Assembly: GCF_002943565.1 (NCBI RefSeq)
Contig: NZ_PJCH01000005.1
Span: 744,001 to 808,000 of the forward strand
Source of the DNA: Hyphococcus luteus
GTDB taxonomy: Bacteria > Pseudomonadota > Alphaproteobacteria > Caulobacterales > Parvularculaceae
DNA length: 64,000 nucleotides
Direction: 5' to 3'
The notes under the pieces are model-generated. The model worked only from the letters and a program-made list of their open reading frames with translations, did no database searches and had not been told where the DNA came from. The number at the start of each line of letters is the position of its first letter. Positions within the stretch are counted from its first letter, which is position 1. Below, piece by piece: positions 6,224 through 26,312 of this stretch. A program made the position numbers and the translations under genes.

Positions 6224-6916
6224 ATGTTCTTCAAACGCTCATCGACCAGCTACGGCCAGAGCCCGTTCCCGGAAACGCCTTATCAGAAAGCCGGACAGAT
6301 CTGGGACGAACGGATCGGATCGGCGCGCGTGCAGTCGAAGAACTGGCGTCTGATGGCGCTCGGTTGTCTCGCGCTCTCCTTCGCGACGTCCGGCGCGCTC
6401 GTCTGGCGCAGTCTGCAATCGACCGTGACGCCCTATGTGGTCGAAGTCGACGAAACCGGCGCGGCGCGTGCGGTTGCGCCGGCCGTTGAGCGCTACAATC
6501 CGAGCGATGCGCAGATCGCGCATCACCTCGCGAACTTCATACAGGATGTGCGCGGGCTATCCGTCGATCCGGTCGTGGTGCGTGAGAACTGGCTCCGGGC
6601 TTACGACTTTGTAACCGACCGCGCGGCGACGACGCTCAGCGAATATGCAAACGCCAATGACCCTTTCGCGGACATCGGGCGCCGTTCGCGCACGGTCGAG
6701 ATCGTCAGCGTCGTCCGCGTGTCGGCGGACAGCTTCCAGGCGCGCTGGATCGAGAAGACTTACGAGAATGGCGCGCTGATGAAGTCCGACCGCTTCACCG
6801 GGCTCTTCACCATCGTCACCCAGCCGCCGCGCGATGCGGCGACGCTGCGCGCCAATCCCCTCGGTTTGTATGTCCACGAGCTCCATTGGGGCCAGGACCT
6901 TGTCACAGGAGACTGA
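6224..6916 (+). CDS. trbF: Conjugal transfer protein TrbF (VirB8-like)
   Basis: TrbF is a bitopic inner-membrane protein that nucleates the translocation complex. Its 230 residues begin with a cytoplasmic segment carrying NPFPETPYQ-like residues near position 10-17. A single membrane span near residues 46-62 follows, then a periplasmic VirB8 fold. Length and domain order match the family. It precedes trbG by four bases. Confidence 0.9.
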   Translation: MFFKRSSTSYGQSPFPETPYQKAGQIWDERIGSARVQSKNWRLMALGCLALSFATSGALVWRSLQSTVTPYVVEVDETGAARAVAPAVERYNPSDAQIAHHLANFIQDVRGLSVDPVVVRENWLRAYDFVTDRAATTLSEYANANDPFADIGRRSRTVEIVSVVRVSADSFQARWIEKTYENGALMKSDRFTGLFTIVTQPPRDAATLRANPLGLYVHELHWGQDLVTGD

Positions 6917-6920
6917 CCCC

Positions 6921-7910
6921 ATGCGTATTCTGTTGTCCTCATCCATGCTCGCCCTGACGGCGGCCTGCGCGTCGGCGCCCGCCGATGACGGGTTCGACCG
7001 CGCCGGTTTTGTCGGCGCCGTTCCGTTCGAGGAGACGGAGGATTACCCGGTCGAAATCGTCGAAACCGCCGTGCCGCTTCCGCTGCCGGGCCAGTTGAAG
7101 AAGATCGACGCCGCGCCGCCGGAACCGCCGGTCCCGCCCGAGGAGGCGATCGAGCAAGGCCGCGCGCATGCGCTGATGGAGCCGACGGTGGATGGCTATG
7201 TCAATGCGATCCAGGTCTATCCTTACACGGAAGGCGCGCTTTACCGGCTCTATGCTAGCCCCGGTCAGGTCAGCGATATTGCCTTGCAGCCGGGCGAAGA
7301 CCTCGTGTCCGTGTCGGCCGGCGACACGGTGCGCTGGGTCGTGGGCGACACGCTGTCCGGCTCAGGCGCCGAAGCCCGCGCGCATGTCCTCGTAAAGCCG
7401 ATCAATGCCGGCATCCGCACCAATCTGATGATCGCGACTGACCGCCGGACCTATCATCTGGAACTCGAAAGCGTTGCGAGCGGCTATATGGCGGCGCTCT
7501 CCTGGCGCTATCCTGCCGACGAGCTGACCCGGCTCGCCGCGCGCAATCGCGACGCGCTGGCGCGTGACGCCGGAACGGTCGAACGCGGTCTTGCGCTGGA
7601 CGGGCTTAACTTCGAGTACAGACTGACCGGCGACGATCCCGACTGGAAGCCGGTGCGCGTCTTCGATGACGGCCGTCAGGTCTTCATCCAGATGCCGGCA
7701 GGCGTGACGACCACCGACATGCCGCCGCTGTTCGTTCTCAATGACGAGAACGACGCCGAACTCGTCAATTACCGCGTGCGCGGGACGTACTATGTCGTCG
7801 ATCGCCTGTTCCGCGCGGCGGAACTTCGCCTCGGCGAGAAGCCGCAGACGGTCGTACGCATCATCCGGGTCGAACGCACCGCCTCGCTCGGCGCCGGATC
7901 GAAGGGCTGA
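6921..7910 (+). CDS. trbG: P-type conjugative transfer protein TrbG (VirB9-like)
   Basis: TrbG forms the outer-membrane-proximal core complex with TrbI. The 329-residue protein starts with a lipoprotein signal whose lipobox is LTAAC at residues 12-16, so it is probably lipidated. The rest matches the VirB9/CagX domain, including the FDDGRQVFIQMP segment near residue 252. The ATG at 6921 follows directly after trbF; the longer open frame that starts inside trbF is not needed. It lies five bases before trbI. Confidence 0.92.
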   Translation: MRILLSSSMLALTAACASAPADDGFDRAGFVGAVPFEETEDYPVEIVETAVPLPLPGQLKKIDAAPPEPPVPPEEAIEQGRAHALMEPTVDGYVNAIQVYPYTEGALYRLYASPGQVSDIALQPGEDLVSVSAGDTVRWVVGDTLSGSGAEARAHVLVKPINAGIRTNLMIATDRRTYHLELESVASGYMAALSWRYPADELTRLAARNRDALARDAGTVERGLALDGLNFEYRLTGDDPDWKPVRVFDDGRQVFIQMPAGVTTTDMPPLFVLNDENDAELVNYRVRGTYYVVDRLFRAAELRLGEKPQTVVRIIRVERTASLGAGSKG

Positions 7911-7915
7911 GCGCG

Positions 7916-9208
7916 ATGGCCGATCCTGTTCCCTTCGACGAGCATGCCGAGCGGCTGAAAATCCGCGCGGCGCCGCGCCCGGTCGCGAAGATCAATCGCA
8001 AAGTGCTGATGGCGGGCGCAGCCGCCGGCGCGCTGCTCCTGTTCGCGGCGGCCAGCATTGCGCTCGCCCCGCCCAAAGCCGTCGATCCCGCCGACCGGCA
8101 GGAGATCTACAATACCGGCAATACGCGAAAGCCGGACCGGCTCGCCTCGCTGCCGGCGAGCTATACCGATCTGCGCCTGACGCCGAAGGATGACGCAACG
8201 CCGCCGGACGTTGCACTCGGGCCGCCGCTCTCCGGCGATCTCGGCGCGACCGTGCTTCAGGCCGAACGCGAGCTTGGCGTCGAGCCGCAATATGCGCGCC
8301 GGATCGATGACGATTTCCGGCCGAACCCGGAAGACGAGGCCGAACGTGCCCGGCGCATGCGGCTTGCCGCGCTCGAAGAGGAAGCGGCGCGCGCGCCGGT
8401 CTTCTTCCGCCTGGAATCGGAAACCGGCGGCGCCGCGAAAACCACGGACGGCCGGTCCGCCGATCGGCTCTCTCTGGAGCGCGCGGCGCTCAACGGGATC
8501 GGGTCGGACCTCCTGGCGCTGGCGGGTCTGCCGCAGGGCGCGCCGTCGGCCTTCGGCGCCGAGCCCGATCCGAACTTGCAGGACCGCAAGCGTGCGTTCG
8601 CGGGCGAAACCGGAAGCGCCGACATCTATAATCCTCACGGCGTTGAATATCCCGTCTCGCCTTATCAGGTGATGGCGGGCACGCTGATCCCGGCGTCTCT
8701 CATAACAGGCATCAACAGCGACTTGCCGGGTGTGATCATCGCCCAGGTGACGCAACCGGTCTATGACACGGTGAGCGGCGACTATCTGCTGATCCCCCAA
8801 GGCGCCCGGCTGCTCGGACGGTATCAGTCTGAAGTCTCGTTCGGTCAGGACCGCGCATTGGTGATCTGGGACCGGATCATCTTCCCGGACGGGTCCTCTG
8901 TGGTGATTTCAGAGCCGGGCGCCGATGCGCAAGGCTATGCCGGCGTTTCCGACCGCACCGATCATCATTGGGGCCGCGTGTTCACCGCTGCCGGTCTCGC
9001 GACCATTCTCGGGATCGGCGCCGAACTCGGCTCCGGCGATGACAGCGACATCGAACGCGCAATCCGCCGCGGAACGAGCGACACAGTGAACCAGGCCGGC
9101 CAGCGCGTCGTCGAACGCAATCTTGGCATTCAACCAACGATCCGTGTGCGTCCCGGCTGGCCCGTTCGGGTCGTGGTGACGCGCGATCTTGTCCTGCGGC
9201 CGCACTGA
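7916..9208 (+). CDS. trbI: Conjugal transfer protein TrbI (VirB10-like)
   Basis: TrbI spans the envelope and links inner- and outer-membrane parts of the secretion channel. The 430-residue protein has a cytoplasmic N-terminus and one membrane span near residues 28-50. A variable charged linker follows, then the conserved VirB10 domain from about residue 245, including the VIPASLITGINSDLPG and YLLIPQGARLLG segments. It is the last mating-pore gene of the operon. A strong AAGGAGG ribosome site 12 bases downstream serves the next gene. Confidence 0.94.
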   Translation: MADPVPFDEHAERLKIRAAPRPVAKINRKVLMAGAAAGALLLFAAASIALAPPKAVDPADRQEIYNTGNTRKPDRLASLPASYTDLRLTPKDDATPPDVALGPPLSGDLGATVLQAERELGVEPQYARRIDDDFRPNPEDEAERARRMRLAALEEEAARAPVFFRLESETGGAAKTTDGRSADRLSLERAALNGIGSDLLALAGLPQGAPSAFGAEPDPNLQDRKRAFAGETGSADIYNPHGVEYPVSPYQVMAGTLIPASLITGINSDLPGVIIAQVTQPVYDTVSGDYLLIPQGARLLGRYQSEVSFGQDRALVIWDRIIFPDGSSVVISEPGADAQGYAGVSDRTDHHWGRVFTAAGLATILGIGAELGSGDDSDIERAIRRGTSDTVNQAGQRVVERNLGIQPTIRVRPGWPVRVVVTRDLVLRPH

Positions 9209-10135: not shown

Positions 10136-11560
10136 TCAGGCTGTCGCCCGCCCGTGTTTGGCGTCGAACGCCGCGAAGAAATCGTCCGGAAACGGGTGCG
10201 CGATTTTCAGAATCTCGCTCTGGCGATAGGCCATAGAGCCGCCATCGCCATATTTGGGGCGGTCATGGTCGTGCCCCATCAGGAGGCATCGCAATTCATA
10301 GTCGATGCCTGCTTCTTTCATCCGGTTCTCGAAGGCGTGGCGGAAGGAATAGGCGACATGATTCGGCGTCTCGAAAAGACCGCGCCGCTTGAAGGTCGCG
10401 CTCAGCGCGGCGGAGAAACTGTTGGTCTTGTCATGATAGTGGGGGAAGCCCTTCGGCGCTCGTCTTGCGGCCTCCAGGGCGACGCCGACCAGCGGGATTT
10501 CGCGTTCGGACTCGGCCGCTTTGATCTCGCGATCTTCGCGGAACGGAATGACGAGATGAGGGACATTCGCTGTCAGGCGGATGTCTTCGGGCCTGAGATT
10601 GATGACTTCTCCTGGACGGCAGCCGGTTTCGATAAGGATACAGGTGATCAGGAAGAGGTCATCGGAAATCCCGTCGAACGCGCCGGTTTTGAGAATATGA
10701 TTGCGCACCCAATCGTCGCTGAAGGCGGGGCGCTTTTTCTTTTTTCCGCGGGCGGTTTTGAAATTGAGATTGCGGAAGGGATTCGCCCTGTCCTCTTCGC
10801 CGAGATATTTGAAATAGCGCTGATAAAGGTCGCGGATGTCGCCAAAATGGCGCGCAGCGGTTTTGGGGGACTTGGCCTTGGCGCCCATCTTCTCGCGCGA
10901 GATCTGATCCGACCACCAGCCGAAATATTGCTGTGCGTGGTCGCGGGTAATGTCGGTCATGGCGAGATCGCCGACCACCTCGACGAAATAGTTCAGCGAC
11001 CGGTCTTTGGTTGCCTTCCAGAGCCGCAATTGCGCGCGCGACTTGCGCCGATTGTCGGTCGGCGCGATTTCGTCCTGATAGAGCCGCATGGCCCCGCTGA
11101 CGGTCAATTTTGGCGTGTCGACGCCGCCAAGGACAGCGTCGGTGAGTGCGGGAATCACGCGCCCGTCCGCGGTGGTCTGATTGCCGATGGCCAGCGAGCG
11201 GCGCACCAGTTCTTCGATCATGGCGGGGTCTGCGAGTTCGTGCAGCGGGCGGTATTTGAAGCCGACGGCCATGGCGCGGGCTTTGGCCAGCTCGTACCGT
11301 CTGGCGGCGGGCTCGATGTCCATGTCCTGACCGGCCGCTTCGAGCCGCATTTTCTGCTTCAGCGCGTGCCAGTATTCGTCGTCGGCGCGAGCGAGACCGT
11401 CGCGTTGTTCGCGGGCTTCCGGGAGGGCGCGCGTGCCGAGCGAAACGCGGATCAGCGGGGCGTCATAGAAGGGGGCGAGCTTGCGGGGAACGGCGCGCTG
11501 ATAGTGATACCAGCCGTTGCGCAGGAGGAGGTAGCGGTCGGGATCGGATTGCTTCGACAT
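10136..11560 (-). CDS. int: Tyrosine recombinase (site-specific integrase)
   Basis: This 474-residue integrase catalyses insertion and excision of the element. An N-terminal segment like that of many phage-type integrases (LLRNGWYHYQRAVPRKL) is followed by a SAM-like core-binding domain near residues 150-265 and the catalytic domain from about residue 275. Visible active-site residues are Arg315 (ETGCRPGE), Arg407 in YSFRHAF, His430 in LMGH and a Tyr at 437 (or 445). The usual His of the HxxR box is Tyr404 here, a variant seen in some integrases. The gene points away from tRNA-Gly and converges with the trb operon. Confidence 0.93.
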   Translation of the reverse strand: MSKQSDPDRYLLLRNGWYHYQRAVPRKLAPFYDAPLIRVSLGTRALPEAREQRDGLARADDEYWHALKQKMRLEAAGQDMDIEPAARRYELAKARAMAVGFKYRPLHELADPAMIEELVRRSLAIGNQTTADGRVIPALTDAVLGGVDTPKLTVSGAMRLYQDEIAPTDNRRKSRAQLRLWKATKDRSLNYFVEVVGDLAMTDITRDHAQQYFGWWSDQISREKMGAKAKSPKTAARHFGDIRDLYQRYFKYLGEEDRANPFRNLNFKTARGKKKKRPAFSDDWVRNHILKTGAFDGISDDLFLITCILIETGCRPGEVINLRPEDIRLTANVPHLVIPFREDREIKAAESEREIPLVGVALEAARRAPKGFPHYHDKTNSFSAALSATFKRRGLFETPNHVAYSFRHAFENRMKEAGIDYELRCLLMGHDHDRPKYGDGGSMAYRQSEILKIAHPFPDDFFAAFDAKHGRATA

Positions 11561-14518: not shown

Positions 14519-15649
14519 TTGTCCGCTGAGCTGGAAAGAATTGAAACGCTTAAGACGCGCGGCGCGCTTGTCGCGCCGGGAGAGGCTCCGGGCCTGTGCG
14601 ATGCGTGGGCGGCGCTCTGCGGCGACCTTCTGGAAGAAAACCCGTTCTTCGCGCCGGAAGCGCTCTTGCCGGCGCTCAAGGCTTACGCAAGCGAGCGCGT
14701 GCGGCTCGCCTGCATCTGGTCGGGGGAGGCGCTGATCGCGCTTTTGCCGGTCGTCAAAAGGCGGGTCTATGCGCGCCTTCCCGTCGCCTATTGGGCGACC
14801 TGGACTCATCCGCATTGTTATTACGGCGCGCCGCTCATTCGCCGCGGCTTCGAAGAGGCGGCGTTCGCAGGACTTTACGAGCTTTTGTGCGAGGGCGAGG
14901 AGGGTCGCGCTTTCGTGCGGCTGGCGCGTCTCGACCGCGACAGGCCGGCGATGAAAGCGGCGCAAAGCGCGGCCGAAACGGAGCGCCGGCTCGCCTATGA
15001 CGCGGGCGCCGTCGCCCGCGCCATGCTGCCTTCGGGCGCCTCGGCGGAGGCGACGCTCGCCGTTCATGTGCGCAAGAAAAAGCGCAAGGAATTGGCGCGC
15101 CTGAAAAAGCGGCTCGAAGAAAAGGGAACGCTGACGCTGCGCCTGCTCTCGCTGGCGGACGATCTCCGTCAGTGGACGGAAGACTTTCTCGCGCTTGAAG
15201 ACAAGGGGTGGAAAGGCAAGGCGAAAACGTCGCTGAAATCGGACGGCAAGGACGCGGCGTGGTTTCGCGAAACCCTTGCGGCCATGGACAAGCGCGCGCA
15301 GCTACATTTTCTTCGGCTCGACCTTGACGAAAAACCCGTCGCCATGCTGGCGACATTGATTTCGAATGGCGCCGCCTATTCCCTGAAGATCTGCCACGAC
15401 CCCGACTATGCGCGCTATTCGCCGGGCGTGATGATCGAGATCGAGGCCATGCGTTCGCTCCTGACGCGGCCCGATTTCCGTTTCGCCGACAGCTGCGCCG
15501 CGCCGGACCATACGATGATCAACGGCCTCTGGCGTGCGCGTCGCGTCGTCACCGGCCTTAATGTCAGCGGCCGCAGCGTTTCCGCTCGTGGAAGCCTCGG
15601 CCTTGCACGGTTGTTGGAGGGCGCCCGCGCCCGCCTGCCGAAAGGATGA
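14519..15649 (+). CDS. FemAB/GNAT-type acyltransferase family protein
   Basis: The 376-residue protein matches the acetyltransferase-like family related to FemAB and BcsL/CelD (Pfam GNAT_6). The core domain lies around residues 165-320, with the typical long Lys/Arg-rich helix near residues 182-202. Several such proteins act in cell-surface polysaccharide or peptidoglycan pathways; the substrate is unknown here. A TTG start at 14,519 is chosen because GGAGA precedes it at good spacing and there is no better ATG. Its stop overlaps the start of the cupin-like gene, so the pair is probably coupled. Confidence 0.72.
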   Translation: MSAELERIETLKTRGALVAPGEAPGLCDAWAALCGDLLEENPFFAPEALLPALKAYASERVRLACIWSGEALIALLPVVKRRVYARLPVAYWATWTHPHCYYGAPLIRRGFEEAAFAGLYELLCEGEEGRAFVRLARLDRDRPAMKAAQSAAETERRLAYDAGAVARAMLPSGASAEATLAVHVRKKKRKELARLKKRLEEKGTLTLRLLSLADDLRQWTEDFLALEDKGWKGKAKTSLKSDGKDAAWFRETLAAMDKRAQLHFLRLDLDEKPVAMLATLISNGAAYSLKICHDPDYARYSPGVMIEIEAMRSLLTRPDFRFADSCAAPDHTMINGLWRARRVVTGLNVSGRSVSARGSLGLARLLEGARARLPKG

Positions 15650-16491
15650 AAGCGATGAGTGCGTTCAATCCCCGATCTCTTGACGATTTCGCCGAGCGCT
15701 ATCCCGCGTCTCCGGCGACGCTGCAGCACCGCTTAGCGGGTCATCCGCTGTTCGCCATGCACCGGCTGACGACGCTCGCCCGCGCCCTGCCGGCTGACCG
15801 CATCGAATATAATTCGGGCGACCTGCCCATCGGGCAGGATCCCGGCGAAACGCCGATGAACGGGCTCAGCGCCGAAGAAACCCTGCGCCGCATCGCCGAA
15901 AATAAATCCTGGATGGTTCTTAAAAATATCGAACGCGATCCATATTATGCGAGGCTGCTTAACGCCTGTCTCGATGAGCTTGCGCCCGTAACGGCGCAAA
16001 CCACCGGCGCCATGCACAAACGCGAAGGCTTTATCTTCATTTCATCGCCCGGTTCCGTGACGCCTTTCCACATGGACCCCGAACACAACATCCTGATGCA
16101 AATTCGCGGCGCCAAAACATTCCGGATTTTTCCGGCGGCGCGCGATTTCGTCAGCGACGAACAGCACGAAGCGTTTCACCGGGCCGGCGGCCATCGCAAC
16201 CTTCCCTATAAAGAGGATTTCGACGATTGCGCGACGGCCTATAAACTCTTTCCGGGCGACGCGCTTTATGCGCCGGTGAAGGCGCCGCACTGGGTCAGGG
16301 TCGGCCCGGACGTCTCCATTTCGCTCTCGATCACCTGGCGCAGCGAAGCCTCCGACGCTGAAGCCTCGCTCCGCCGCGCCAATGGCTGGCTGCGCGCCCA
16401 TGGGATTGCGCCGCCGGCGCCGGGGGCGGTTCCCTTGCACGACCGGCTGGCGTCGCTTGGGGCCCGGGCTGCGGCCCGGCTTGCGCGCTGA
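15646..16491 (+). CDS. JmjC/cupin-like 2-oxoglutarate oxygenase family protein
   Basis: This 281-residue protein has the metal-binding triad expected of JmjC-type Fe(II)/2-oxoglutarate oxygenases: His142 and Asp144 in TPFHMDPEHN, and His215 in APHWVRV. Proteins of this type hydroxylate proteins or small molecules; the substrate cannot be read from the sequence. The ATG at 15,646 overlaps the end of the acyltransferase gene, and a second ATG at 15,655 is also possible. The overlap suggests the two enzymes serve the same pathway. Confidence 0.78.
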   Translation: MKAMSAFNPRSLDDFAERYPASPATLQHRLAGHPLFAMHRLTTLARALPADRIEYNSGDLPIGQDPGETPMNGLSAEETLRRIAENKSWMVLKNIERDPYYARLLNACLDELAPVTAQTTGAMHKREGFIFISSPGSVTPFHMDPEHNILMQIRGAKTFRIFPAARDFVSDEQHEAFHRAGGHRNLPYKEDFDDCATAYKLFPGDALYAPVKAPHWVRVGPDVSISLSITWRSEASDAEASLRRANGWLRAHGIAPPAPGAVPLHDRLASLGARAAARLAR

Positions 16492-16578: not shown

Positions 16579-18042
16579 GTGTCCTCAACCATAGAATTCG
16601 ACGCCCCGGCCAGCGATCTTCAGCTTTGCGCAAGTCCTAAGGAGGCGATCGACCGGCTCATCGCGCTTTATGACGAGGCTTACGACAGCACGCGGCAGCG
16701 CTTTGAGCAGTATCTCGCCGGCGACGCGGCGGTCGACCGAAGCAGCGGCGCCGTCTATCCTTATCTGTGCGCAGTGGTGCCGGCGGAGGCCGCGCCCCAG
16801 ACCTCGAAGCTCGCCCTCGGCCAGATCGCGGCGCTCAGCGTTCACGGCGCGACAGTGACGCATCCGGCGCTCTTCGCCGATTATTTCTCGGCGCAGCTCG
16901 CCTATATCATAGAGCGCTATTCCGCGAAGATTTATGTGGGGCGCTCTTTCACGCCGATCCCGCTCACCTTCGCGCTTGAAAAAGCGACGGCGGCCCTGAC
17001 GCCGGAAAAGCGCAACCGCCTGCAGCAATATTTCCACACGCCCAATCTCGTCGCCACCAATGACGACATTGTCGACGGCCATCTCATCTTGAAGCGTCAC
17101 GGCGCCATGCCTTTGTCGCTCTTCACGGCGGAGCGGGTCGATTATTCCCTGCATCGCATCCAGCATTACACGGCGACGAAGCCCGAACACTTCCAGAATT
17201 ATGTTCTGTTTACGAACTATCAGCGCTATGTGGACGAATTTGTCGACTACGCAAAAGGCGAGATCGCGGCGGGCCGCGCCGAGGCGCTGATCGAGCCCGG
17301 CGACCGCGTCACGACCAAGGATAAAAAGCCTGAAGGGCCCGAACCCCGCCTGCCGCAAATGCCGGCCTATCACCTCGTTCAGCCGGGCCATGACGGCATC
17401 ACGCTCGTCAATATCGGCGTCGGGCCCTCGAACGCTAAGACGATTACCGACCATCTTGCGGTCCTGCGCCCCCATGTCTGGTTGATGATCGGCCATTGTG
17501 GCGGTCTCCGGCGGTCCCAGCGGCTCGGCGATTACGTCCTCGCCCATGCTTATTTGCGCGAGGACAATGTGCTCGACGATGTGTTGCCGCCCTCGGTGCC
17601 GCTGCCGACCCTTGCTGAAGTGCAGCTCGCCATGACCCAGGCCGTGCAGGAAGTGTCGGGCATCGAACAGAAAAAGCTGAAAGAGCATTTGCGCACCGGC
17701 ACCGTCGTCACCACCAGCGACCGCAACTGGGAGCTGCGTTTTGAAAAGAACGCCGTGCGCCTCAACCAGGCGCGCGCCATCGCCATCGATATGGAATCGG
17801 CGACCATCGCCGCCAACGGCTATCGCTACCGCGTGCCTTACGGAACGCTTTTATGCGTGTCCGACCGGCCGCTTCATGGCGAGGTGAAGCTGCCCGGCAT
17901 GGCCGACGCTTTCTATCGGGAGCGGGTGAGCCAGCATCTCGACATCGGCGTCAGGGCCATCGAGCTCCTGCGCGAAGAGGCGCGGGCCGGAACGCTGCAC
18001 TCGCGCAAGCTCAGAAGCTTCGATGAGCCGTTTTTGCGCTAA
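16579..18042 (+). CDS. amn: AMP nucleosidase
   Basis: Amn splits AMP into adenine and ribose 5-phosphate and helps set adenylate levels. The 487-residue protein is the usual length. An N-terminal AMP nucleosidase domain covers about residues 15-180, and a C-terminal nucleoside-phosphorylase-like domain contains VNIGVGPSNAKTITDHLAVL and the IDMESATIAANGYR segment. The start is GTG at 16,579 with GGAGGA upstream. The last bases overlap the stop of the convergent glutaminyl cyclase gene. Confidence 0.95.
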   Translation: MSSTIEFDAPASDLQLCASPKEAIDRLIALYDEAYDSTRQRFEQYLAGDAAVDRSSGAVYPYLCAVVPAEAAPQTSKLALGQIAALSVHGATVTHPALFADYFSAQLAYIIERYSAKIYVGRSFTPIPLTFALEKATAALTPEKRNRLQQYFHTPNLVATNDDIVDGHLILKRHGAMPLSLFTAERVDYSLHRIQHYTATKPEHFQNYVLFTNYQRYVDEFVDYAKGEIAAGRAEALIEPGDRVTTKDKKPEGPEPRLPQMPAYHLVQPGHDGITLVNIGVGPSNAKTITDHLAVLRPHVWLMIGHCGGLRRSQRLGDYVLAHAYLREDNVLDDVLPPSVPLPTLAEVQLAMTQAVQEVSGIEQKKLKEHLRTGTVVTTSDRNWELRFEKNAVRLNQARAIAIDMESATIAANGYRYRVPYGTLLCVSDRPLHGEVKLPGMADAFYRERVSQHLDIGVRAIELLREEARAGTLHSRKLRSFDEPFLR

Positions 18043-18845
18043 TTGAGCATTTCGAAGATTTCGATCTTGAAAAGCTTCGGCCAGTATTTGCCGGTGACGT
18101 AGAGGACGTCTTTTTCGCCCTTATAGGCGATGCCGTTCAGAACGTCGGTCTTGCCGCGTTCATAATCTTCATCGGGCAGGAGGCCGCGCAGATCGACGAT
18201 TCCGGTGACCGCGCCGCTCGACGGATCGATGCGGACAATGGCGTCGGTCTGCCAGACATTGGCGAAAATCTCGCCGTCGACCCATTCAAGTTCGTTGAGA
18301 TTGCGCAAGGGCTTTCCGCGCAGAGTGACGTTGAGACGTCGCGTCTCCTCGAAGGTTAAAGGATCGATGAAGCGCAATTGCGCGCCGCCGTCGCTCATCA
18401 CCAGTTCTTCGCCGTTGAAGGCGAGACCCCAGCCTTCGCCGTCATACTGGTAACTTTTTTCGAGCGTGAAGTTTTCCGGATCGAAGCGGAAGGCGGTTCC
18501 GTTTTTCCAGCTCAGAACGAAAATGTTGCCATGCGCCATGGCCGCGCCTTCGCCGAAATGCGATTGCGGCAGAGCGGTTTTTTGCAGGACTTCGCCTGTT
18601 TCAAGATCGACCCGCCGCAGGGAAGATTCGCCGTACTGGCCGGTCGTCTCGTAAAGGTCGCCATCGTCGAAAAAGAGGCCTTGCGTGAAGGCGTCGCGCG
18701 CATGGGGATGGGTTTCGAGGACGCGGTAGCCGTAACGGAAGGGCTCGACAGGCTCTGCGGCCGCTGCTGCGCAGCACGCCAGAAACGTGACAAAGACGGC
18801 GGCCAGCCTTGTTGCAATATGCCGCCTTGCAACAACGGGTCTCAC
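18039..18845 (-). CDS. Glutaminyl-peptide cyclotransferase (plant/bacterial beta-propeller type)
   Basis: This 268-residue secreted enzyme belongs to the beta-propeller glutaminyl cyclases that turn N-terminal Gln into pyroglutamate. A signal peptide covers about residues 1-30 (AAAAAEP end). The family's PHARDAFTQGLFF and YETTGQYGESSLR segments follow, then FGEGAAM and LNELEWVDGEIFANVW. The GTG start overlaps the stop of the preceding ceramide N-acyltransferase gene, which points to translational coupling. A role in the ceramide pathway is not known, so the linkage is notable. Confidence 0.9.
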   Translation of the reverse strand: MRPVVARRHIATRLAAVFVTFLACCAAAAAEPVEPFRYGYRVLETHPHARDAFTQGLFFDDGDLYETTGQYGESSLRRVDLETGEVLQKTALPQSHFGEGAAMAHGNIFVLSWKNGTAFRFDPENFTLEKSYQYDGEGWGLAFNGEELVMSDGGAQLRFIDPLTFEETRRLNVTLRGKPLRNLNELEWVDGEIFANVWQTDAIVRIDPSSGAVTGIVDLRGLLPDEDYERGKTDVLNGIAYKGEKDVLYVTGKYWPKLFKIEIFEMLN

Positions 18846-19993
18846 AGCGGCTTCTCGTACATGCGATAGGTCTTGTAGATCTCGGCGCCCATGTCGAGGA
18901 GCATCGACAGCATGGATTCGTTGCTGTCGAGAATCCAGGAGAGCTCGGAATGAACGACGCCGCGGGAGACATTCTCTTCTTGGGCGATCATAATCATTTT
19001 GTAAGCGAGCGCCGTGCCGACCGGGCGGCGGTGAAGCTTGCGGACGACGCCCATGAGCGGCATGCGCGCGCGCGGAACGGGCTGCAGTTTCAGCCGCCAG
19101 ATCAGCTTCGCCCAGTTGAAGGGCAGCAATTTGCCGCCGAAATCGCGGGTGACGTAATTGACGTCGGGCAGGACGAGGCTGAACGCCGCCGGTTCGCCGT
19201 CATAATCGCAGAACACCACATTATAAGGCTCAATGATCGGCCTCAGCTCCTTCGCCATATGGTCGATCTGATCCTCCGTAAACGGAATAAACCCCCAATT
19301 GTCGAACCATGCGTCGTTGAAAATATTGACGAGGGTGTGAATCTCCCTGTCGAAATTCTTCATGTCTATGGTGCGGAACGAGACTTTCGGGTTGGCGAGC
19401 GCCTTGTCGATAAAGCGCTGGCGTTTTTCCGGCATCAGTTGCGGGCGCGGAATATATTTAAGGGCGTGCATGTCGACGGCTTTTTGAAAGCCGTTCTCCT
19501 CCATCAGGCGCGCATAATAAGGCCGCCCGTGGGGCATCATCACGTAGGGCGGCGTGTCGAAACCGCTGATGAGAAGCCCGGATTCCTCATTGATCGTATT
19601 GTTGAAGGGGCCGAGAATTTTCTCAACGCCTTCGGATTTCAGCCAGTGCGAGGCCGCATCGATGAGGGCCTTGGCGACGCCCGGGTCGTCAACGCTCTCG
19701 AAAAAGCCGAAATGGCCGGCATTGTCCCCATGGCGCTCGATATAGGCCCTGTTGACGAGCGCGGCGATGCGTCCCGCCGGCTTGCCGTCCTTCTCGGCGA
19801 TCCAGAGTTTGCGCGGAAACCCCTTGATCGACGGGTTCTTCTCGGCGTCGAGGCGCGCGGCGAGCTCATATTCAAGCGGCGCGACGTAATTCGGGTCGTC
19901 GGCGTAAATGTCGTTCGCCAGCCGGATGAAGGTCTTCATGTCGGCGGGCGTTTCGACAGGGCGGATGGCGAGAGAGGCGGCGGTGTCGAGCAT
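18842..19993 (-). CDS. bcerS: Bacterial ceramide synthase-like N-acyltransferase
   Basis: The 383-residue protein has a GNAT-like fold with IAEKDGKPAGRIAALVN near residue 65 and a second acyltransferase-like half around residues 210-370. This matches the family that includes Caulobacter bCerS, which adds the second acyl chain to the sphingoid base intermediate. Assignment to ceramide synthesis rests on this resemblance plus linkage to spt, acpR, cerR and aasR. The ATG at 19,993 (MLDTAAS) is preferred over an upstream in-frame ATG because GGAAA lies at suitable distance. Confidence 0.82.
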   Translation of the reverse strand: MLDTAASLAIRPVETPADMKTFIRLANDIYADDPNYVAPLEYELAARLDAEKNPSIKGFPRKLWIAEKDGKPAGRIAALVNRAYIERHGDNAGHFGFFESVDDPGVAKALIDAASHWLKSEGVEKILGPFNNTINEESGLLISGFDTPPYVMMPHGRPYYARLMEENGFQKAVDMHALKYIPRPQLMPEKRQRFIDKALANPKVSFRTIDMKNFDREIHTLVNIFNDAWFDNWGFIPFTEDQIDHMAKELRPIIEPYNVVFCDYDGEPAAFSLVLPDVNYVTRDFGGKLLPFNWAKLIWRLKLQPVPRARMPLMGVVRKLHRRPVGTALAYKMIMIAQEENVSRGVVHSELSWILDSNESMLSMLLDMGAEIYKTYRMYEKPL

Positions 19994-20078
19994 GCGTGTT
20001 TCCGAAAGGGCGTTAAAGTCCGATCTTACCCCTAAACCGCGCTGAGGCGAAACGGCCCGGCGCAAATTCCGCGCGCGG

Positions 20079-20579
20079 TTAATTCAGCTTGATGACGACA
20101 TGCGCGCCGTCCTGCGGCGTCACTTCGAAAAGCGCTTTTTCGACCGGCGGCGGCCCGAAGCGGACTTTCGGATTGTTGGAAATGCCCCAGGGCTCGGCGG
20201 GAAAGCCGATGGCGGTCTTGTCGAAATCGCCATTGGCGTTTTCATCGTGATACGTCGACATGGCGAAAAGACCGGACTCCGGCGCGTCGATGCAGAATTT
20301 CGTCATCGGCGACTTGGCGGCGTATTTCACCTGTTTCAGGCGCCCGCGTCCGTGCAGGAACCCTTCCTGCCTGTTCGGGAAGAGATCGGCGGTGATGAGG
20401 CCGACACTGTCTTCCACGCCTACAATGATGACGCGGATTTCGTTCTCCGCGCCCTTGCAGCTCACATGGTCGAAGTTGAAATCTTCTTCCGTCACTGCCG
20501 TGGCGTCGTCGGCGAAGGCCGCGCCTGCGCCAGCGGCCACTATCAGGGCGGCGATTATTCCGGCACGCGTCACTTCCAT
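20079..20579 (-). CDS. DUF2141 domain-containing secreted protein
   Basis: This 166-residue protein has a signal peptide ending near residue 23 (GAAFADD) and a DUF2141 domain with the characteristic STYHDENANGDFDKTAIGFPAEPWGISN region near residues 108-135. DUF2141 proteins are predicted to be extracytoplasmic and beta-rich; their function is unknown. A near-perfect AAGGAGG site precedes the ATG. It lies between spt and bcerS in the same direction, so a role in handling the ceramide product in the periplasm is possible but unproven. Confidence 0.88.
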   Translation of the reverse strand: MEVTRAGIIAALIVAAGAGAAFADDATAVTEEDFNFDHVSCKGAENEIRVIIVGVEDSVGLITADLFPNRQEGFLHGRGRLKQVKYAAKSPMTKFCIDAPESGLFAMSTYHDENANGDFDKTAIGFPAEPWGISNNPKVRFGPPPVEKALFEVTPQDGAHVVIKLN

Positions 20580-20857
20580 GTCCTCCTTAACTCCGCCCGG
20601 CCTTAATTAGGCGTCCGAGACGCCGCGGCGAAGGCGCAAATGCGGCGATTTTGCGCCGCAGGCGTCTTTTGCGGGCCCCTGACGGGATCGTGAACACGCC
20701 GCCCGGGGCCAGCCGGCGTCCTAGCCGGTAATTGCGACAGGCTTGTGTAAGCGCCCGCGCGCCCGGTGCGGCGGCGAGGCCTCCTTGTCCCGTTTCGAAG
20801 GAGAGCAGCAAGTTCCGGGCCGTATGACAAAGCGTACAATTTACGGGGGCCTTGATG
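20580..20857 (-). other. Intergenic region between spt and the DUF2141 gene
   Basis: These 278 bases hold no convincing gene; the frames here have no family match or ribosome site. A short perfect hairpin (GGCGTC, loop CGA, GACGCC) lies at 20,610-20,624, about 30 bases before the DUF2141 start. The gap is long enough to carry a separate promoter for the DUF2141-bcerS-cyclase set, but I see no clear promoter boxes. Confidence 0.4.
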
Positions 20858-22069
20858 TTAAGCGTCTGTGTCGATGCGGGCGGACGGGAACGCTTCGGCA
20901 AGCGCCCCATAAGCGGAAACAAGGCGGTCGATGTCGTCACTGGTGTGCGCCGAGGAAACCGCGAGGCGGAGAAGAGATTCCTTGCCGGGGGTTCCCGGCG
21001 GGATCGCCATATTGACGTAAACGCCGTGCTCCAGGAGGAAGCTCCACGCCTCGAAGGCGTCTTCCCGGGTCGGCAGAAGCACCGAAATCACCGGCGCGGG
21101 CTCGGCCGCGAGCCGGAGGCCGAATTGCGTGAAGGCGGCGTGCAGGCGCTTGGCGTTTTCCCAAAGCTTCGCTCTGATTTCCGGATGCGCCTTGATGTTG
21201 GCGAGCGCCGCGCTCGCCGACGCGATCGTCGCTGGCGACGGGGAGGCGGTGAAGCGGTAGGGGTTGGACGAAATGCGCAGATATTCCGCTTCCGGATGGT
21301 TTGAGGCGACGAAGCCGCCGATCGACGCGAGCGCCTTTGAAAAGGTGCCGGTGTAAAAGTCGACTTGATCCATCACGCCTTCGGCTTCGGAAACGCCTTT
21401 GCCGGTTTCCCCGTAAACGCCGAAGGAATGGGCTTCGTCGACAAGAAGAAAGGCGTCATGCTTGTGCGCGACCTCGACGAACTCCTTTACCGGCGCGATG
21501 TCGCCATACATCGAATACATGCCCTCGATGCAGACGAGCTTGCCCTTGTATTTCGGATCGAGGCGCGAGAGGCGTTTATCGAGATTTTCCGGATCGTTGT
21601 GACGGAAACGGATGGTTTCCGCGCCAGAAAGCTGGCAGCCGTCATAGATGCAGGCGTGACAGTCGGCGTCGATCAGGACGGCGTCCTGGACGCGGTCGAC
21701 GAGCCCGGCGATGGCGCCGAGATTGGCGGCGTAGCCGGTCGAGAAGACCAGGCAGTGCTTCATGCCGAGATAGGCTGCAAGATCCTCTTCGAGCTTTTTG
21801 TGGCCGGCGAAAGTGCCGTTGGCGACGCGCGATCCGGTGGTGCCGGTGCCGTCATGATCAAGCGCGTCTTTCGCAGCCTGGATCGCGCTCGCCTCGAAGG
21901 TCTGCCCGAGATAATTGTGAGTGCCGGCGAGCACCGTTTCGCGGCCCTTGATCCGCGCGCGCGTCGGACCGAGGACTTCCTCCATCACCACCGTGAAGGG
22001 GTTTTTCCCGATCGCCGACAGATGGTCGTAGAGCGCCGCGTTCTTCTCGAATTTTTCAAACAGGCTCAT
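20858..22069 (-). CDS. spt: Serine palmitoyltransferase
   Basis: Spt is a PLP enzyme of the alpha-oxoamine synthase family that joins serine to an acyl thioester to give 3-ketosphinganine. The 403-residue protein has the PLP-binding set: His138 (DADCHACIYDG), Asp211 and His214 (VDEAHSFGVYG) and the Schiff-base Lys245 (TFSKALASIGG). It is soluble and lacks membrane spans, like other bacterial forms. Closely related enzymes (KBL, AONS) share these motifs. The choice of Spt rests on the adjacent acyl carrier protein, two bases upstream, and the rest of the ceramide genes. Confidence 0.9.
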   Translation of the reverse strand: MSLFEKFEKNAALYDHLSAIGKNPFTVVMEEVLGPTRARIKGRETVLAGTHNYLGQTFEASAIQAAKDALDHDGTGTTGSRVANGTFAGHKKLEEDLAAYLGMKHCLVFSTGYAANLGAIAGLVDRVQDAVLIDADCHACIYDGCQLSGAETIRFRHNDPENLDKRLSRLDPKYKGKLVCIEGMYSMYGDIAPVKEFVEVAHKHDAFLLVDEAHSFGVYGETGKGVSEAEGVMDQVDFYTGTFSKALASIGGFVASNHPEAEYLRISSNPYRFTASPSPATIASASAALANIKAHPEIRAKLWENAKRLHAAFTQFGLRLAAEPAPVISVLLPTREDAFEAWSFLLEHGVYVNMAIPPGTPGKESLLRLAVSSAHTSDDIDRLVSAYGALAEAFPSARIDTDA

Positions 22070-22071
22070 CG

Positions 22072-22335
22072 TCAGGATTGTTCTTTCTTGATCGCATGAA
22101 TGGCGTCGACCAGTTCCCCGATGGTCTTGATTTCAGAGATTGTGTTGACCGGGATCGAGATGTCGTAATTGTCCTCGATGTCCATGACGACGTCGAGCAG
22201 CGAGACGGAATCGATCTCCAGATCGGCGATGATGTCGGTGTCGCGCGTCAGCTTCACGCCCTTTTCGTTGAGCGGCTCCAAAAGGGAGGTGATCTTGTGG
22301 AATACGAGATCGTCGTCTTCTTGAATGCCGGACAT
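22072..22335 (-). CDS. acpR: Acyl carrier protein of the sphingolipid cluster
   Basis: This 87-residue acyl carrier protein has its phosphopantetheine Ser at position 43 in EIDSVSLLDVV and a helical layout typical of ACPs. It is distinct from the housekeeping AcpP and probably carries the fatty acyl chain used by Spt. A strong AGGAG site precedes the ATG at 22,335; the longer upstream frame is not needed. It ends two bases before the spt start. In Caulobacter an ACP in the same position is needed for ceramide synthesis. Confidence 0.88.
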   Translation of the reverse strand: MSGIQEDDDLVFHKITSLLEPLNEKGVKLTRDTDIIADLEIDSVSLLDVVMDIEDNYDISIPVNTISEIKTIGELVDAIHAIKKEQS

Positions 22336-22382
22336 GGCTTCGTCTCCTTTGCGGGGCGTCGTTCCGCGCGCCCGCGCGCCGA

Positions 22383-23306
22383 TTAAAGCAAACCGTGTTC
22401 TTGATACCAACGGGCGGTTTTTGCAAATCCTTCCTTTAGGGGCGTTTTCGGCCGCCAGCCTGAGGCCTCGCTCAGGAGGTTCTCCCGCGCCGTCCAGTCC
22501 GGGTGGAAGAACTCGTTGACCTGGCCTTCGCGGACGCTGGGGCCCTTCCCAAGCGCGCTCTCGACGGCGCGCGTCGCGCCATGATAGGCCGCAATCGCCG
22601 GGCGCGGAACCGCAATCGCGCGGGGATGCTTGCCCAGAACCTCGCCCAAAATCTCGCCGATTTCCCGCCAGGAATGGCCCTCTTCGCGCTCGTCGCCGAC
22701 CTCGTAGACAGCGCCGGGGGCCGCGCCTTCCGCGGCTGCGAGCATCGCCCCGGCGGCGTCCTCCACATAGAGAATGGAGGCGCGGGCGGCGGGATCGGTC
22801 TTGGGCGCGAGGGCGAAGCCGGCCTTGACCAGCTTGAAAAAAGGCAGGGTGACCATGTCCCGCGGCCCGTAGATGGCGGGCAGCCTGAGCGCGCGCCAGT
22901 CCCCGCCGGCGCGCGCGACCGCCGTCTCGCTGTCGAACTTGCTTTTGGCGTAAGGCGAGACTTGCGGCTGGCGCGCCGACATGGACGAAGCATGGACAAG
23001 CCGCGCGTTAGCGTCTTTAGCGGCCCGCGCCGCTTTCGCCGCGCCTTCCACATTGACGCGCGCATAGTCCTCGCGCGCGCGCGCATGGGTGAGGCCGGCG
23101 AGGTGGAAGAAAACATCGGCGCCGGCGGCGAGCTCGGCGAGCGCCGTCTCGTCTTCGAGCGCGCCCTTGACGATGCGCACGTCCTTGGCGGCGGGAAGGC
23201 GCGCCGGATCGCGCGCCAGCGCGGCGACGTCCCATCCTTGTTCCAAGAGCAAATCAATCAGCGCGGCGCCGACAAAGCCGGTTCCGCCTGTCACCGCTGC
23301 TTTCAC
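22383..23306 (-). CDS. cerR: NAD-dependent epimerase-type ceramide reductase
   Basis: The 307-residue protein is an extended short-chain dehydrogenase with a nucleotide-binding TGGTGFVG at residues 6-13 and a catalytic Tyr119-x3-Lys123 (PYAKSK). In Caulobacter the neighbouring gene of this family, cerR, reduces the oxidised ceramide intermediate, and the same place in the operon suggests the same job. The GTG at 23,306 is chosen because it directly precedes the Rossmann strand and has AGGA upstream. The longer frame would run into the aasR gene. Confidence 0.85.
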   Translation of the reverse strand: MKAAVTGGTGFVGAALIDLLLEQGWDVAALARDPARLPAAKDVRIVKGALEDETALAELAAGADVFFHLAGLTHARAREDYARVNVEGAAKAARAAKDANARLVHASSMSARQPQVSPYAKSKFDSETAVARAGGDWRALRLPAIYGPRDMVTLPFFKLVKAGFALAPKTDPAARASILYVEDAAGAMLAAAEGAAPGAVYEVGDEREEGHSWREIGEILGEVLGKHPRAIAVPRPAIAAYHGATRAVESALGKGPSVREGQVNEFFHPDWTARENLLSEASGWRPKTPLKEGFAKTARWYQEHGLL

Positions 23307-23316
23307 GGGACCGGTC

Positions 23317-25131
23317 CTAAACGCGCGCCTCAGCGAGGCTGCGCGGGGCTTCTTCGTCTTCCTGAACGTCTCCGGCAAAGGCGCCGTCGAGATATTTCTG
23401 CTTCACCTTGGCGCGGGAAAGCTTGCCGGAAGAGGTCATGACCATGGAGTGCGGCCGGGCGAGAACGATTTCCGCCGGCGCGCCGACGGCGTTCTGCACG
23501 ACAACGCCGATTTCGCGTTTCAGGGCCGCCAGCGCTTCGGCGTCCATGCCGCGGCGTTCGGCGACGACGACGATGCGTTCGCCGTGGCCGTCATCGACGG
23601 AAAACGCCGCCACGCCGCCGCCGCGCACGCCTTCGACTTTTTCGACGGCCCATTCGATGTCCTGCGGCCAGATATTGCGGCCGTTGATGATGATGAGATC
23701 CTTGGCGCGGCCGGTGATGACGATCTGGCCGCCCAGGAAATACCCCATGTCGCCGGTGTCGAGCCAGTCGCCGTCATACATCTCGGCGGAGGCTTCGGCG
23801 TCGGAGTAATAGCCGGGCGTCAGGCTCGGTCCCTTGATGAAGATGCGGCCCACATGACGTTCGTCGCAGGGCGCGCCGCTTTCGTCGCGCACTTCGATGG
23901 CGTGACCGGGCAGCGCGCGTCCGCACAGGACGAAGCCGCGCTTGTGTTCCGGCGAGGTCAGCGTCGAGGCCGGCTGCGCGACGCCGGAGCGCGTGTAATG
24001 GCGCATGTCGACTTCGTCGACTTTCACCGCCTCGCCAAGTTTCGGGAAGGAAATGGCGAGCGTCGCTTCGGCCATGCCGTAGCTCGGCGTGAAGGCGTTG
24101 CGGTTGAAGCCCACGGGGCCGAAAGCCTCGGCGAAGGCGTTCAAGGCCTCCGGGCGCACCATGTCGCCGCCAATGCCGGCGACGCGCAGATTAGTGAGAT
24201 CGATGGCGCCGGGTTCGGCGCGCGCCGAGCGCTTGGCCGCGAGTTCGTAGCCGAACGACGGGCTGTAGGTGATCGTCGTCTTGTTGTCGGTCATGATGCG
24301 CAGCCACAAAAGCGGTCTGCGGACGAAATCGGACGTCGCCAGGAAATCGACGGAAACCTGCGTCGTCATCGGGGTCAGGACAAAGCCGATGAGCCCCATG
24401 TCGTGATAAAGCGGCAGCCAGCTCGTGGCGCGGTCGCCCTGCGTAAGATACATGCCGTCGCGGGCGATGGCGGTGAGATTGGCGCAGACCGAGCGCTGCA
24501 GGCCGATAACGCCTTTCGGCGCGCTCGTCGAACCGGACGAGTACTGAATATAGCAATAGTCGTCGGCGCCGAAGCGCTGGGGGCTGGCGCCCTTGTCGTC
24601 GAGCGCGTTGAGCTCGTCAAAGCTCATGACTTTCGCGCCGCCCGCCTGGCCGGCGGCTTCTTCCAGAAATTCGCGCAAGGTTTCCGGTCCAACCGCAGCG
24701 GCGGCGTCGGCGCCGGCGATCATCTGGCGGATCTGATTGATGTAGCCGTCCTTGCCGCCGAGATTGACCGGCATCGGCATCGGCGCCGGAACGAGTCCGG
24801 CATATTGGCAGGCGTAGAAGGTGACGAGAAAATCGGGGCTCGTTTCGGCGATGACGGCGAGCCTTGCGCCGCGCTCGAAATTGCCGGCGAGTTTCGCCGC
24901 GAGCGCCAACGCGCTTTCGCGCAACCCGGAGAAGGGAAGCGCCGCGGAGACGTCGCCGCGCAGATTGAAGAAAGTATAGCCGGTGTCGCCTTGCGCCGCA
25001 TAATCGAGCGCGTCGCAAATTGTGGAAAATCCGCTGGCCTTCGCCGGCAGCGAAGCGTTTTGACTCGGCAAGGCCGCCGTCTTTTCCGGGCCAAGCTTCT
25101 TCTCCGGCCCCTCGTTAGGAATGACGGTCAT
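23317..25131 (-). CDS. aasR: Acyl-ACP synthetase / fatty acyl-AMP ligase
   Basis: This 604-residue adenylate-forming enzyme has the AMP-binding signature YSSGSTSAPKGV near residue 196. It also has PSYGMAEATL near residue 345, the TGDMGYF motif near residue 460 and a C-terminal Lys in TSSGKLSRAK near residue 575. The overall pattern is that of fatty acyl-AMP ligases, which load acyl groups onto an ACP. As first gene of the operon it most likely charges the AcpR protein with a fatty acid for Spt. It ends ten bases before cerR. Confidence 0.88.
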   Translation of the reverse strand: MTVIPNEGPEKKLGPEKTAALPSQNASLPAKASGFSTICDALDYAAQGDTGYTFFNLRGDVSAALPFSGLRESALALAAKLAGNFERGARLAVIAETSPDFLVTFYACQYAGLVPAPMPMPVNLGGKDGYINQIRQMIAGADAAAAVGPETLREFLEEAAGQAGGAKVMSFDELNALDDKGASPQRFGADDYCYIQYSSGSTSAPKGVIGLQRSVCANLTAIARDGMYLTQGDRATSWLPLYHDMGLIGFVLTPMTTQVSVDFLATSDFVRRPLLWLRIMTDNKTTITYSPSFGYELAAKRSARAEPGAIDLTNLRVAGIGGDMVRPEALNAFAEAFGPVGFNRNAFTPSYGMAEATLAISFPKLGEAVKVDEVDMRHYTRSGVAQPASTLTSPEHKRGFVLCGRALPGHAIEVRDESGAPCDERHVGRIFIKGPSLTPGYYSDAEASAEMYDGDWLDTGDMGYFLGGQIVITGRAKDLIIINGRNIWPQDIEWAVEKVEGVRGGGVAAFSVDDGHGERIVVVAERRGMDAEALAALKREIGVVVQNAVGAPAEIVLARPHSMVMTSSGKLSRAKVKQKYLDGAFAGDVQEDEEAPRSLAEARV

Positions 25132-25538
25132 TCAACGCCCCGCACTTCGCCGGCCGCCGCCGGCCGTTCTTGATTTATCACCGCCGCAAAGACCCCTCGA
25201 GGAAGCCTCTCGCAGAATGCCTGCTGGAAGACCTCGCCCCGGCGCGTCTTACACGGCGCATCTCCACGCCCCTGCGCCAAGACGCAGGGCTAATTTTGAG
25301 CCGATACAAGCCCTTGGGTCAACGGGCAAGACCTTGACCTGCCTCTGCTTATCAAGATTTGCAGCCGGATGTTACAGCTTGTTGCGTCAATGCCGGAATA
25401 TTTGACTGCTTTTTCCGGGACGGCGGCGTTTCGGCGCTTGAACCGGCCAGTTTCCGCGCCTAATTTCGCAATTGCGCAAAGGCCAGCCAACAGGCCCCTG
25501 CGCCGCCCCCGCATTACGAATTAGTCAGGAGCGCGAAA
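25132..25538. promoter_or_regulatory. Divergent intergenic region of the ceramide locus
   Basis: These 407 bases separate the leftward aasR operon from the rightward hydroxylase gene, so both promoters should be here. A perfect 7-base inverted repeat (CCCTGCG / CGCAGGG, loop of six) lies at 25,270-25,289 and could be an operator or a short terminator-like hairpin. The middle part is AT-richer, with promoter-like TTGACC near 25,334. I see no gene; the short frames here lack ribosome sites. Confidence 0.45.
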
Positions 25539-26312
25539 ATGCGCCTTTTCATCGGCTACAAGGCTTGGAAAGAAGAGGAATATCTCCTCAACCGCATGAC
25601 TTTCGACGACCTCGTCAAAGCCTATGTCACCTATCCCGCGATCCAGGTCTACGCGTTGATCCTGATCGCCGCGCTTGTCGCCGGAATCGCGACGATCGGC
25701 TCTATCTCGTTGTTTTTAGCCGCTTTTGCCGCCGGCGCGGTTCTGTTCCCGATCGCCTGGTACTTCGTTCACCGGTTCGTCCTGCATGGCAGCTGGATGT
25801 ACAAGACGCCCTGGCTCGCGGGGTTGTGGAAAAGGGTCCATTACGACCATCATCTCTATCCCAACGATCTTTCGGTCCTGTTCGGAGGGCTGCACACCAC
25901 CCTGCCGACGATCCTTCTGGTCGCGGGGCCCGTGGGCTGGCTGATCGGCGGTTTTCCCTGCGCCTGCGCCGCTGTGGCGGGCACGGTGGTGATGACGATG
26001 TACACCGAATTTCTGCATGCGGGCGAACATCTCGCCTTCCAGCCCAAGTCGAAATTCTGGAAAGACATGAAGCGGCGCCATCTCGCCCATCATTTTCACA
26101 ACGAGCAGGGCAATTACGGCATCGCGGAATTTTTCTGGGACCGCCGCTTCGGCACGTTCTATGACGACACCAAAGATGCGCCGCGCACCGCCACGGCCCG
26201 CAATCTTGGTTACACAAGCGAAATGGCCGAGAAATTCCCTTGGGTTAAGGAGCTGACGGACGCGGAGCCCGAACCCCGCAAGTCGATGCGCAGCCGCGGC
26301 GCGGTCTCTTAA
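25539..26312 (+). CDS. Sterol desaturase/fatty acid hydroxylase superfamily protein
   Basis: This 257-residue membrane protein has the histidine boxes of di-iron lipid hydroxylases: HRFVLH near residue 78, HYDHH near residue 102, a HAGEH group near residue 164 and HLAHHFH near residue 184. Several hydrophobic segments flank them. Enzymes of this superfamily hydroxylate fatty acids, sphingoid bases or carotenoids. Its position divergent from the ceramide operon suggests that it hydroxylates the sphingoid base or the amide-linked acyl chain. A GGAG site precedes the ATG. Confidence 0.82.
   Translation: MRLFIGYKAWKEEEYLLNRMTFDDLVKAYVTYPAIQVYALILIAALVAGIATIGSISLFLAAFAAGAVLFPIAWYFVHRFVLHGSWMYKTPWLAGLWKRVHYDHHLYPNDLSVLFGGLHTTLPTILLVAGPVGWLIGGFPCACAAVAGTVVMTMYTEFLHAGEHLAFQPKSKFWKDMKRRHLAHHFHNEQGNYGIAEFFWDRRFGTFYDDTKDAPRTATARNLGYTSEMAEKFPWVKELTDAEPEPRKSMRSRGAVS

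Follow-up and report, generated by a model that had tools for sequence, protein, structure and literature searches.

Ceramide is a lipid more familiar from animals and yeast than from bacteria. The closest described counterpart of the locus reported here is the ceramide/CPG2 cluster of Caulobacter crescentus, CC_1168-CC_1152 (PMC11324152, PMC9386255). In Caulobacter, the reductase CerR was placed in the periplasm (PMC11087976), and the reported ceramide hydroxylase was a DesA-type enzyme, CC_0202, encoded outside the cluster (PMC11324152). The ceramide genes of Sphingomonadales were described in the same source as scattered, which indicated that headgroup genes in the cluster do not strictly define a Caulobacter-type pathway. 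Our study examined 64 kb of the Hyphococcus luteus genome (the window, meaning the whole stretch analyzed), located on contig C12 of a 4.92 Mb genome in 16 contigs that was 99% complete. Positions 18039-26312 of the window carried aasR, cerR, acpR, spt, DUF2141, bcerS, and a glutaminyl cyclase (QC) gene, together with a divergent gene, FAH. The evidence made it likely that this was a Caulobacter-type ceramide locus with an Scs7-like FAH ceramide hydroxylase, an exported DUF2141 partner, and an spt gene that had been exchanged in place. The close tracking of spt by DUF2141 and the separate history of spt went beyond an earlier note made from the letters of the window.

The spt gene (20858..22069, minus strand) encoded a serine palmitoyltransferase (SPT) of the form that we call type A. 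The predicted protein scored 555 bits against NF047599 (cut-off 500), with the KBL, bioF, and ALAS models far under their own cut-offs. The earlier note had named, beforehand, an affinity with KBL/AONS as the result that would speak against its reading; the best solved-structure relatives were SPTs, at an E value of 1e-115, and KBL reached only 5e-58. Judged from these sequence comparisons, spt encodes a true SPT and not a KBL or AONS.

The history of spt differed from that of the rest of the operon. In the nearest relative, G042 (locus L032), SPT was of type B and only 67% identical to that of the window, whereas nine neighbouring proteins were 84-100% identical (HPPase 96, FAH 91, AasR 91, CerR 85, AcpR 100, DUF2141 84, bCerS 86, QC 86, and AMN 89%) and the unlinked NTf 79%. 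SPT from G041 and G019 was 87% identical to that of the window, yet all ten of their other proteins fell below the G042 values. An SPT tree of 39 rows separated 15 type A rows from 24 type B rows with support of 100/98, and in the window's genus 4 of the 26 spt-bearing genomes were of type A (the window genome G000, G019, G039, and G041) and 22 of type B. On a tree of AasR, CerR, AcpR, DUF2141, and bCerS, also of 39 rows, the A/B distribution needed seven changes, at least six of them forced by starred branches, and three A/B sister pairs were each recovered with 100% bootstrap: the window with G042, G041 with G022, and G019 with G021. Both trees left out seven far rows (L026, L029, L031, L033, L068, L080, and L085) as well as L086 and 23 loci judged by contig to be duplicates, and L009 and L060 entered with cut AasR and bCerS. 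Approximately unbiased (AU) tests on 20 rows showed the same conflict from both sides: the SPT data rejected the three sister pairs (p 8.5e-5, 0.0016, and 1e-29), and the other operon genes rejected both a grouping of the window with G041 and G019 (1.5e-4) and one of the window with G041 (8e-83). In sister genomes, one and the same slot is filled by either of two ancient spt types. DNA identity between the window and G042, taken in 200-column windows, was 92-94% in acpR, 63-66% at the start of spt, up to 84% in mid-spt, 64-67% near the end of spt, 72-79% after spt, and 84-92% in DUF2141. The mid-spt rise was as expected of a conserved enzyme core, and the deviating tract corresponded roughly, to within those 200-column windows, to the spt open reading frame (ORF).

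In our reading, spt was probably swapped at its site by homologous recombination, with conserved acpR and the downstream genes as anchors, a mechanism and a direction of exchange that we infer. Three SPTs of different Rhodobacteria were reported to prefer Caulobacter acyl-AcpR, and AasR to acylate its own AcpR (PMC9386255, Padilla-Gomez et al.). With SPT tolerant in this way and AasR specific, spt would be replaceable alone, and acpR and aasR less easily, which fits the pattern seen. An ancestral tandem duplication, with A beside B and a reciprocal loss in each descendant without interspecies exchange, is unlikely in our judgment, although several observations weighed toward it and against exchange. 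Within each type, the copies in a seven-genome subclade nearly matched the species order, as would also be expected if an ancient pair of spt genes had been lost reciprocally. From branch lengths read by hand, each type seemed to date back as far as the subclade itself, which argued against a recent single import, and the type A copies kept by G041 and the window were not more alike than several of the other proteins of these genomes. However, duplication demands that both copies were retained over three speciations and then lost in opposite directions in all three sister pairs, and a second spt at E ≤ 1e-100 was found in no family genome except G027.

In that genome, two contigs each ended in a different acpR-spt (L086, 1-1098; L088, 9250-10593), 77% identical over 1010 bases, and these could be a tandem pair, as duplication would have it, or mixed strains. 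The second acpR-spt resembled those of G035, G037, and G038 (92-94%, 277 residues), whereas its DUF2141 and bCerS were nearest to those of G030 (76 and 87%), and such mixed affinities look like exchange and not like an old duplication. G027 was also considered as a simple tandem A-B intermediate and rejected as such, as both copies were of type B, one G030-like and the other like G035, G037, and G038.

A chimera of assembly or binning appeared highly improbable as the source of the spt conflict. Of the 25 named records, 22 were titled as metagenome-assembled genomes (MAGs), which would favour such an error; judged by spt and the neighbouring genes, the closest named relatives were records of Parvularculaceae, Parvularcula, and Marinicaulis. 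Against this, the window spt was embedded in a contig of 1.2 Mb from a genome 99% complete, G019 (type A) was a single contig, the spt of G042 (type B) lay on a 571 kb contig, and the conflict repeated in three sister pairs.

Seven alignment columns, out of more than 370 residues, split all 14 A rows from all 24 B rows compared. At one of these positions, residue 51, type A had His and type B had Asn; it aligned with Tyr73 of structure 2jg2. By its neighbouring residues, residue 51 was tentatively placed at Asn52 of the Sphingobacterium multivorum SPT, which reaches the serine hydroxyl through water (PMC10196870). H138, D211, H214, K245, and R368 of the window SPT aligned with H159, D231, H234, K265, and R390 of 2jg2, and I356 replaced R378 of 2jg2 in all of the A and B rows compared; the seven further loci that were compared had Ile, Leu, or Val at position 356. 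The aligned residues would have their usual catalytic roles, with K245 as the pyridoxal phosphate lysine. A division into alpha-type and beta-type SPT was tried as an explanation of A and B and rejected, since the window SPT and five family rows (three B and two A) passed NF047599 and failed NF047603. One speculative and quite doubtful extension would be that A and B are kept across species as exchangeable alleles of one slot. The two types, which differ at residue 51 as a probable serine contact, would then yield distinct long-chain bases, and sister species would vary in their outer-membrane sphingolipids, with phages or peptide antibiotics as a conceivable selective force; DUF2141 would be an obligatory, overlooked exported component of the pathway.

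FAH (25539..26312, plus strand) was predicted to encode a PF04116 di-metal lipid hydroxylase of 257 residues (74.6 bits against a cut-off of 31). A Pfam scan gave PF04116 only, with neither PF00487, the domain tested for the DesA type (five matches in the window genome), nor a cytochrome b5 domain in the 257 residues, so that a separate protein probably donates the electrons. Compared with the DesA-type Caulobacter enzyme, FAH thus looked like an independent solution. Seven PF04116 matches were present in the window genome, and by sequence only FAH matched a solved structure (Scs7, 1e-6); the six paralogues matched none at E 0.1. Scs7 was also the sole match of the AF2 model of FAH (pLDDT 74) at E ≤ 0.001, with a probability of 1.00, the AF2 models of this study having been built on 22 and 14 rows. 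Ten histidines of FAH aligned to Scs7 and were invariant in 14 homologues. The first box read H-x4-H, as in the Scs7 alignment, versus H-x3-H in five of the six paralogues, a form that we take to be of the Sur2/sterol type.

Among the family genomes, FAH was found in 34 of 42 with spt and in none of 20 without it, and four of the 34 copies (G018, G031, G034, and G040) had a stop in the matched range. At the order level, FAH occurred in 25 of 200 genomes, all of them among the 66 with spt over the cut-off; these counts came from two 200-genome draws that were taken as identical, and the Fisher values ignored kinship. Immediate neighbourhood of FAH to bcerS or to spt was seen in Euryhalocaulis, in an ETNP MAG, in three family genomes of genus g8, and in two of three f4 loci. 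FAH most likely hydroxylates ceramide, probably on the N-acyl chain. The ceramide hydroxylase proposed in the earlier note gained support from its linkage to spt and its Scs7-like structure, while its activity stays a prediction. Weighing against it, FAH was not found in eight of the 42 spt-bearing family genomes, and at least one further genome (G018) had a disrupted copy, so that hydroxylation would not be essential to the pathway and the trait comes and goes. The G018 copy (locus L027, approximately 6182-6709) lay, with its stop, between a pyrophosphatase-like gene and aasR.

It is rather unlikely that FAH acts instead on C4 of the sphingoid base, as Sur2 does, or on a non-ceramide lipid, with its place at the locus an accident. 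PF04116 includes enzymes that act on many lipids, which leaves room for another substrate. A DUF2141 gene was reported to adjoin crtG, a carotenoid hydroxylase gene, in Sphingomonadales (PMC5989583, PMC9241875), which points the same way. Opposed to this were the occurrence of FAH solely with spt in the family genomes and the order draw, its position next to bcerS or spt in distant families, its H-x4-H first box, and Scs7 as the only solved-structure match by sequence and by fold, although few members of PF04116 may have solved structures.

The DUF2141 gene (20079..20579, minus strand; PF09912, 82.8 against 24.4) encoded a probably exported beta-sandwich protein, as its AF2 model (pLDDT 76) was mostly strands and a signal peptide was likely by eye. 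Of the genes profiled, which also included FAH, QC, and NTf, DUF2141 showed the tightest association with spt, being present at E ≤ 1e-20 in 42 of 42 family genomes with spt and in 0 of 20 without. This cut-off was chosen after the list had been seen; at the search's own cut-off of 1e-10, four of the 20 genomes without spt had weak relatives (1e-11 to 1e-15). Outside the family, DUF2141 was found in 20 of 33 fetched spt clusters (f2 6/6, f3 4/9, f4 0/3, and f5 10/15), either preceding bcerS or running divergently from lptF2; for one of the f3 copies, the PF09912 assignment was verified. Outside the family, 39 genomes passed the SPT cut-off, and the 33 loci came from all of these but six f3 genomes; L222 was judged to be the Euryhalocaulis record L026 again. 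The 13 loci in which DUF2141 was not found weighed against our overall reading, with the limit that each fetched stretch was at most 20 kb and absence there does not equal absence from the genome. The family was also indicated not to be ceramide-specific by its occurrence beside the gene for CrtG, itself presumably PF04116-like. DUF2141 was retained where FAH was lost, which argued that it is not merely an FAH helper, and, with its likely signal peptide and predicted beta-sandwich, DUF2141 may serve to carry ceramide, or to present it, in the periplasm, the compartment assigned to CerR in Caulobacter.

The remaining core genes lay on the minus strand with spt. They were aasR (23317..25131; acyl-ACP synthetase of the fatty acyl-AMP ligase type; NF006624, 715 against 600), cerR (22383..23306 from a GTG at 23306, longest ORF to 23378; short-chain dehydrogenase/reductase- or epimerase-type ceramide reductase; PF01370), acpR (22072..22335, from an ATG after a GGAG site; specialised acyl carrier protein; PF00550), and bcerS (18842..19993 from an ATG at 19993, longest ORF to 20065; GNAT-type bacterial ceramide synthase; a weak PF00583, 27.9 against 20.7). 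All eight genes named in the earlier note were present where it had put them, with their families confirmed by Pfam or NCBI models, and the five core ceramide genes (aasR, cerR, acpR, spt, and bcerS) were all matched. Leftward from aasR, the genes were separated by 10 bp (aasR-cerR), 47 bp (cerR-acpR), 2 bp (acpR-spt), 278 bp (spt-DUF2141), and 85 bp (DUF2141-bcerS), and bcerS and QC overlapped by 4 bp. FAH was transcribed divergently from aasR across 407 bp and was followed rightward by a gene that we label HPPase (pyrophosphatase-like).

The order AasR-CerR-AcpR-SPT on a single strand was kept in all 25 named-record loci retrieved with the spt protein, which argued that it was not due to chance; among these, the AasR match of L009 was cut, those of L012 and L020 were split, and SPT was cut in L028. 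The cultured species Amphiplicatus metriothermophilus also carried the locus (L022). DUF2141 came next downstream of the core unit in 20 of the 25. In f3, profiles built from related loci matched CerR in its expected slot in nine of nine loci (241-287 bits) and bCerS in eight of nine (425-458 bits). The compact order, which had been singled out as distinctive, is in fact usual for the Parvularculaceae-like family, and it is derived within the order, as most other loci read have a headgroup and lptF2/lptG2 block between spt and bcerS.

QC (18039..18845, minus strand; PF05096, 314 against 22) followed bcerS in 11 of the 25 named loci. It was found in 25 of 42 family genomes with spt and in 18 of 20 without, at least as common in the latter. 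Its proposed membership of the ceramide system was therefore dropped, and QC is probably a bystander. An AMP nucleosidase gene converged with QC from the left side, and a FemAB-like GNAT gene (PF13480, 14519-15649) and a Cupin_8 gene (15646-16491) traveled with it beside the locus in several genomes. Farther left, Pfam matches marked conjugation genes at 120-9208 (T2SSE/TrbB-like, TrbE, TrbL, and TrbI), then a DUF6538/phage-integrase gene at 10136-11560; these genes, 6.5 kb from the ceramide unit, may mark where an integrated conjugative element ends.

No headgroup genes were recognised between FAH and QC, in agreement with the prediction that they lie elsewhere, and homologues were located at two other sites. 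C14:81502-83429 held DAGK_cat and NTf genes, 25% and 34% identical to the pair beside spt in G053. C12:473495-478100 held a second LptF/LptG pair resembling ceramide-linked LptF2 (31%, 1e-42), a GT4 enzyme with a relative in f4 (406 bits) that is encoded after cerR, and a protein without a Pfam match that was flippase-like by eye only; the LptF/LptG pair on C10 had no match to ceramide-linked LptF2 at 1e-3. The NTf and flippase-like labels are provisional. NTf was found in 25 of 42 family genomes with spt and in one of 20 without, a patchiness suggesting that the headgroup may vary. In f2, most of f5, and two of three g8 loci, headgroup and transport genes lay between spt and bcerS; in the window genome they lay elsewhere. 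The f4 clusters were variable: acpR-spt-FAH-bcerS were contiguous in L223, spt-FAH reached a contig end in L225 with GT4 genes after cerR, and L224 had spt-bcerS with GT4 genes and no FAH. These clusters (L223-L225) are possibly a glycosphingolipid version.

The gene content, order, co-occurrence, phylogenetic conflict, and approximate breakpoints described above were observed directly; the presence of ceramide in the host, the enzyme activities, ceramide hydroxylation and its site, and the function of DUF2141 are what we infer from them. In the proposed pathway, AasR would load a free fatty acid on AcpR, SPT would condense it with serine, and bCerS and CerR would complete dihydroceramide. FAH would then hydroxylate the ceramide, probably on the N-acyl chain, and DUF2141 would act as an exported partner, probably when ceramide is reduced in the periplasm, hydroxylated, or transported. 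Elsewhere, the genome has homologues of the ceramide-linked kinase pair and of the glycosyltransferase, as well as the second LptF/LptG pair.

Overall, the ceramide pathway described in this study is an ordinary one; FAH and DUF2141 are good new leads, and spt has an unusual history that is well supported. FAH is a testable candidate which, if true, would be a second, unrelated bacterial ceramide hydroxylase beside the DesA-type enzyme of Caulobacter, and DUF2141 is a testable ceramide candidate from a family of unassigned function. Recurrent spt exchange would provide natural pairs of near relatives with different versions of the first committed pathway enzyme, allowing the effect of SPT type on lipids, phages, and the polymyxin response to be compared directly.

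Compared with known systems, FAH shared with yeast Scs7/FA2H (PDB 4zr0, 4zr1) the PF04116 domain, the ten aligned histidines, and its only confident fold match, and differed in its approximately 20% identity and in having no cytochrome b5 domain found. Mosaic operons formed by gene displacement in situ are a known concept. The spt gene was like these in that one operon gene had a foreign history with gene order kept, and unlike them in that the event was recurrent, with two types alternating in three sister pairs, and limited to the first committed enzyme. In f3 loci (presumed Caulobacteraceae from their gene order), DUF2141 occupied the slot divergent to lptF2 in four of nine, which is the position of CC_1157, a match that was positional only; PMC11324152 called CC_1157 probably unrelated and reported its mutants as without high cofitness with the cluster. 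With the Caulobacter crescentus cluster itself, the window locus shared the five ceramide genes and the aasR-cerR-acpR-spt run, and the kinase pair and the LptF2/LptG2 that adjoin spt in related genomes had homologues elsewhere in the window genome; the difference was that headgroup and transport genes lay outside the window locus, and DUF2141 and FAH lay inside it.

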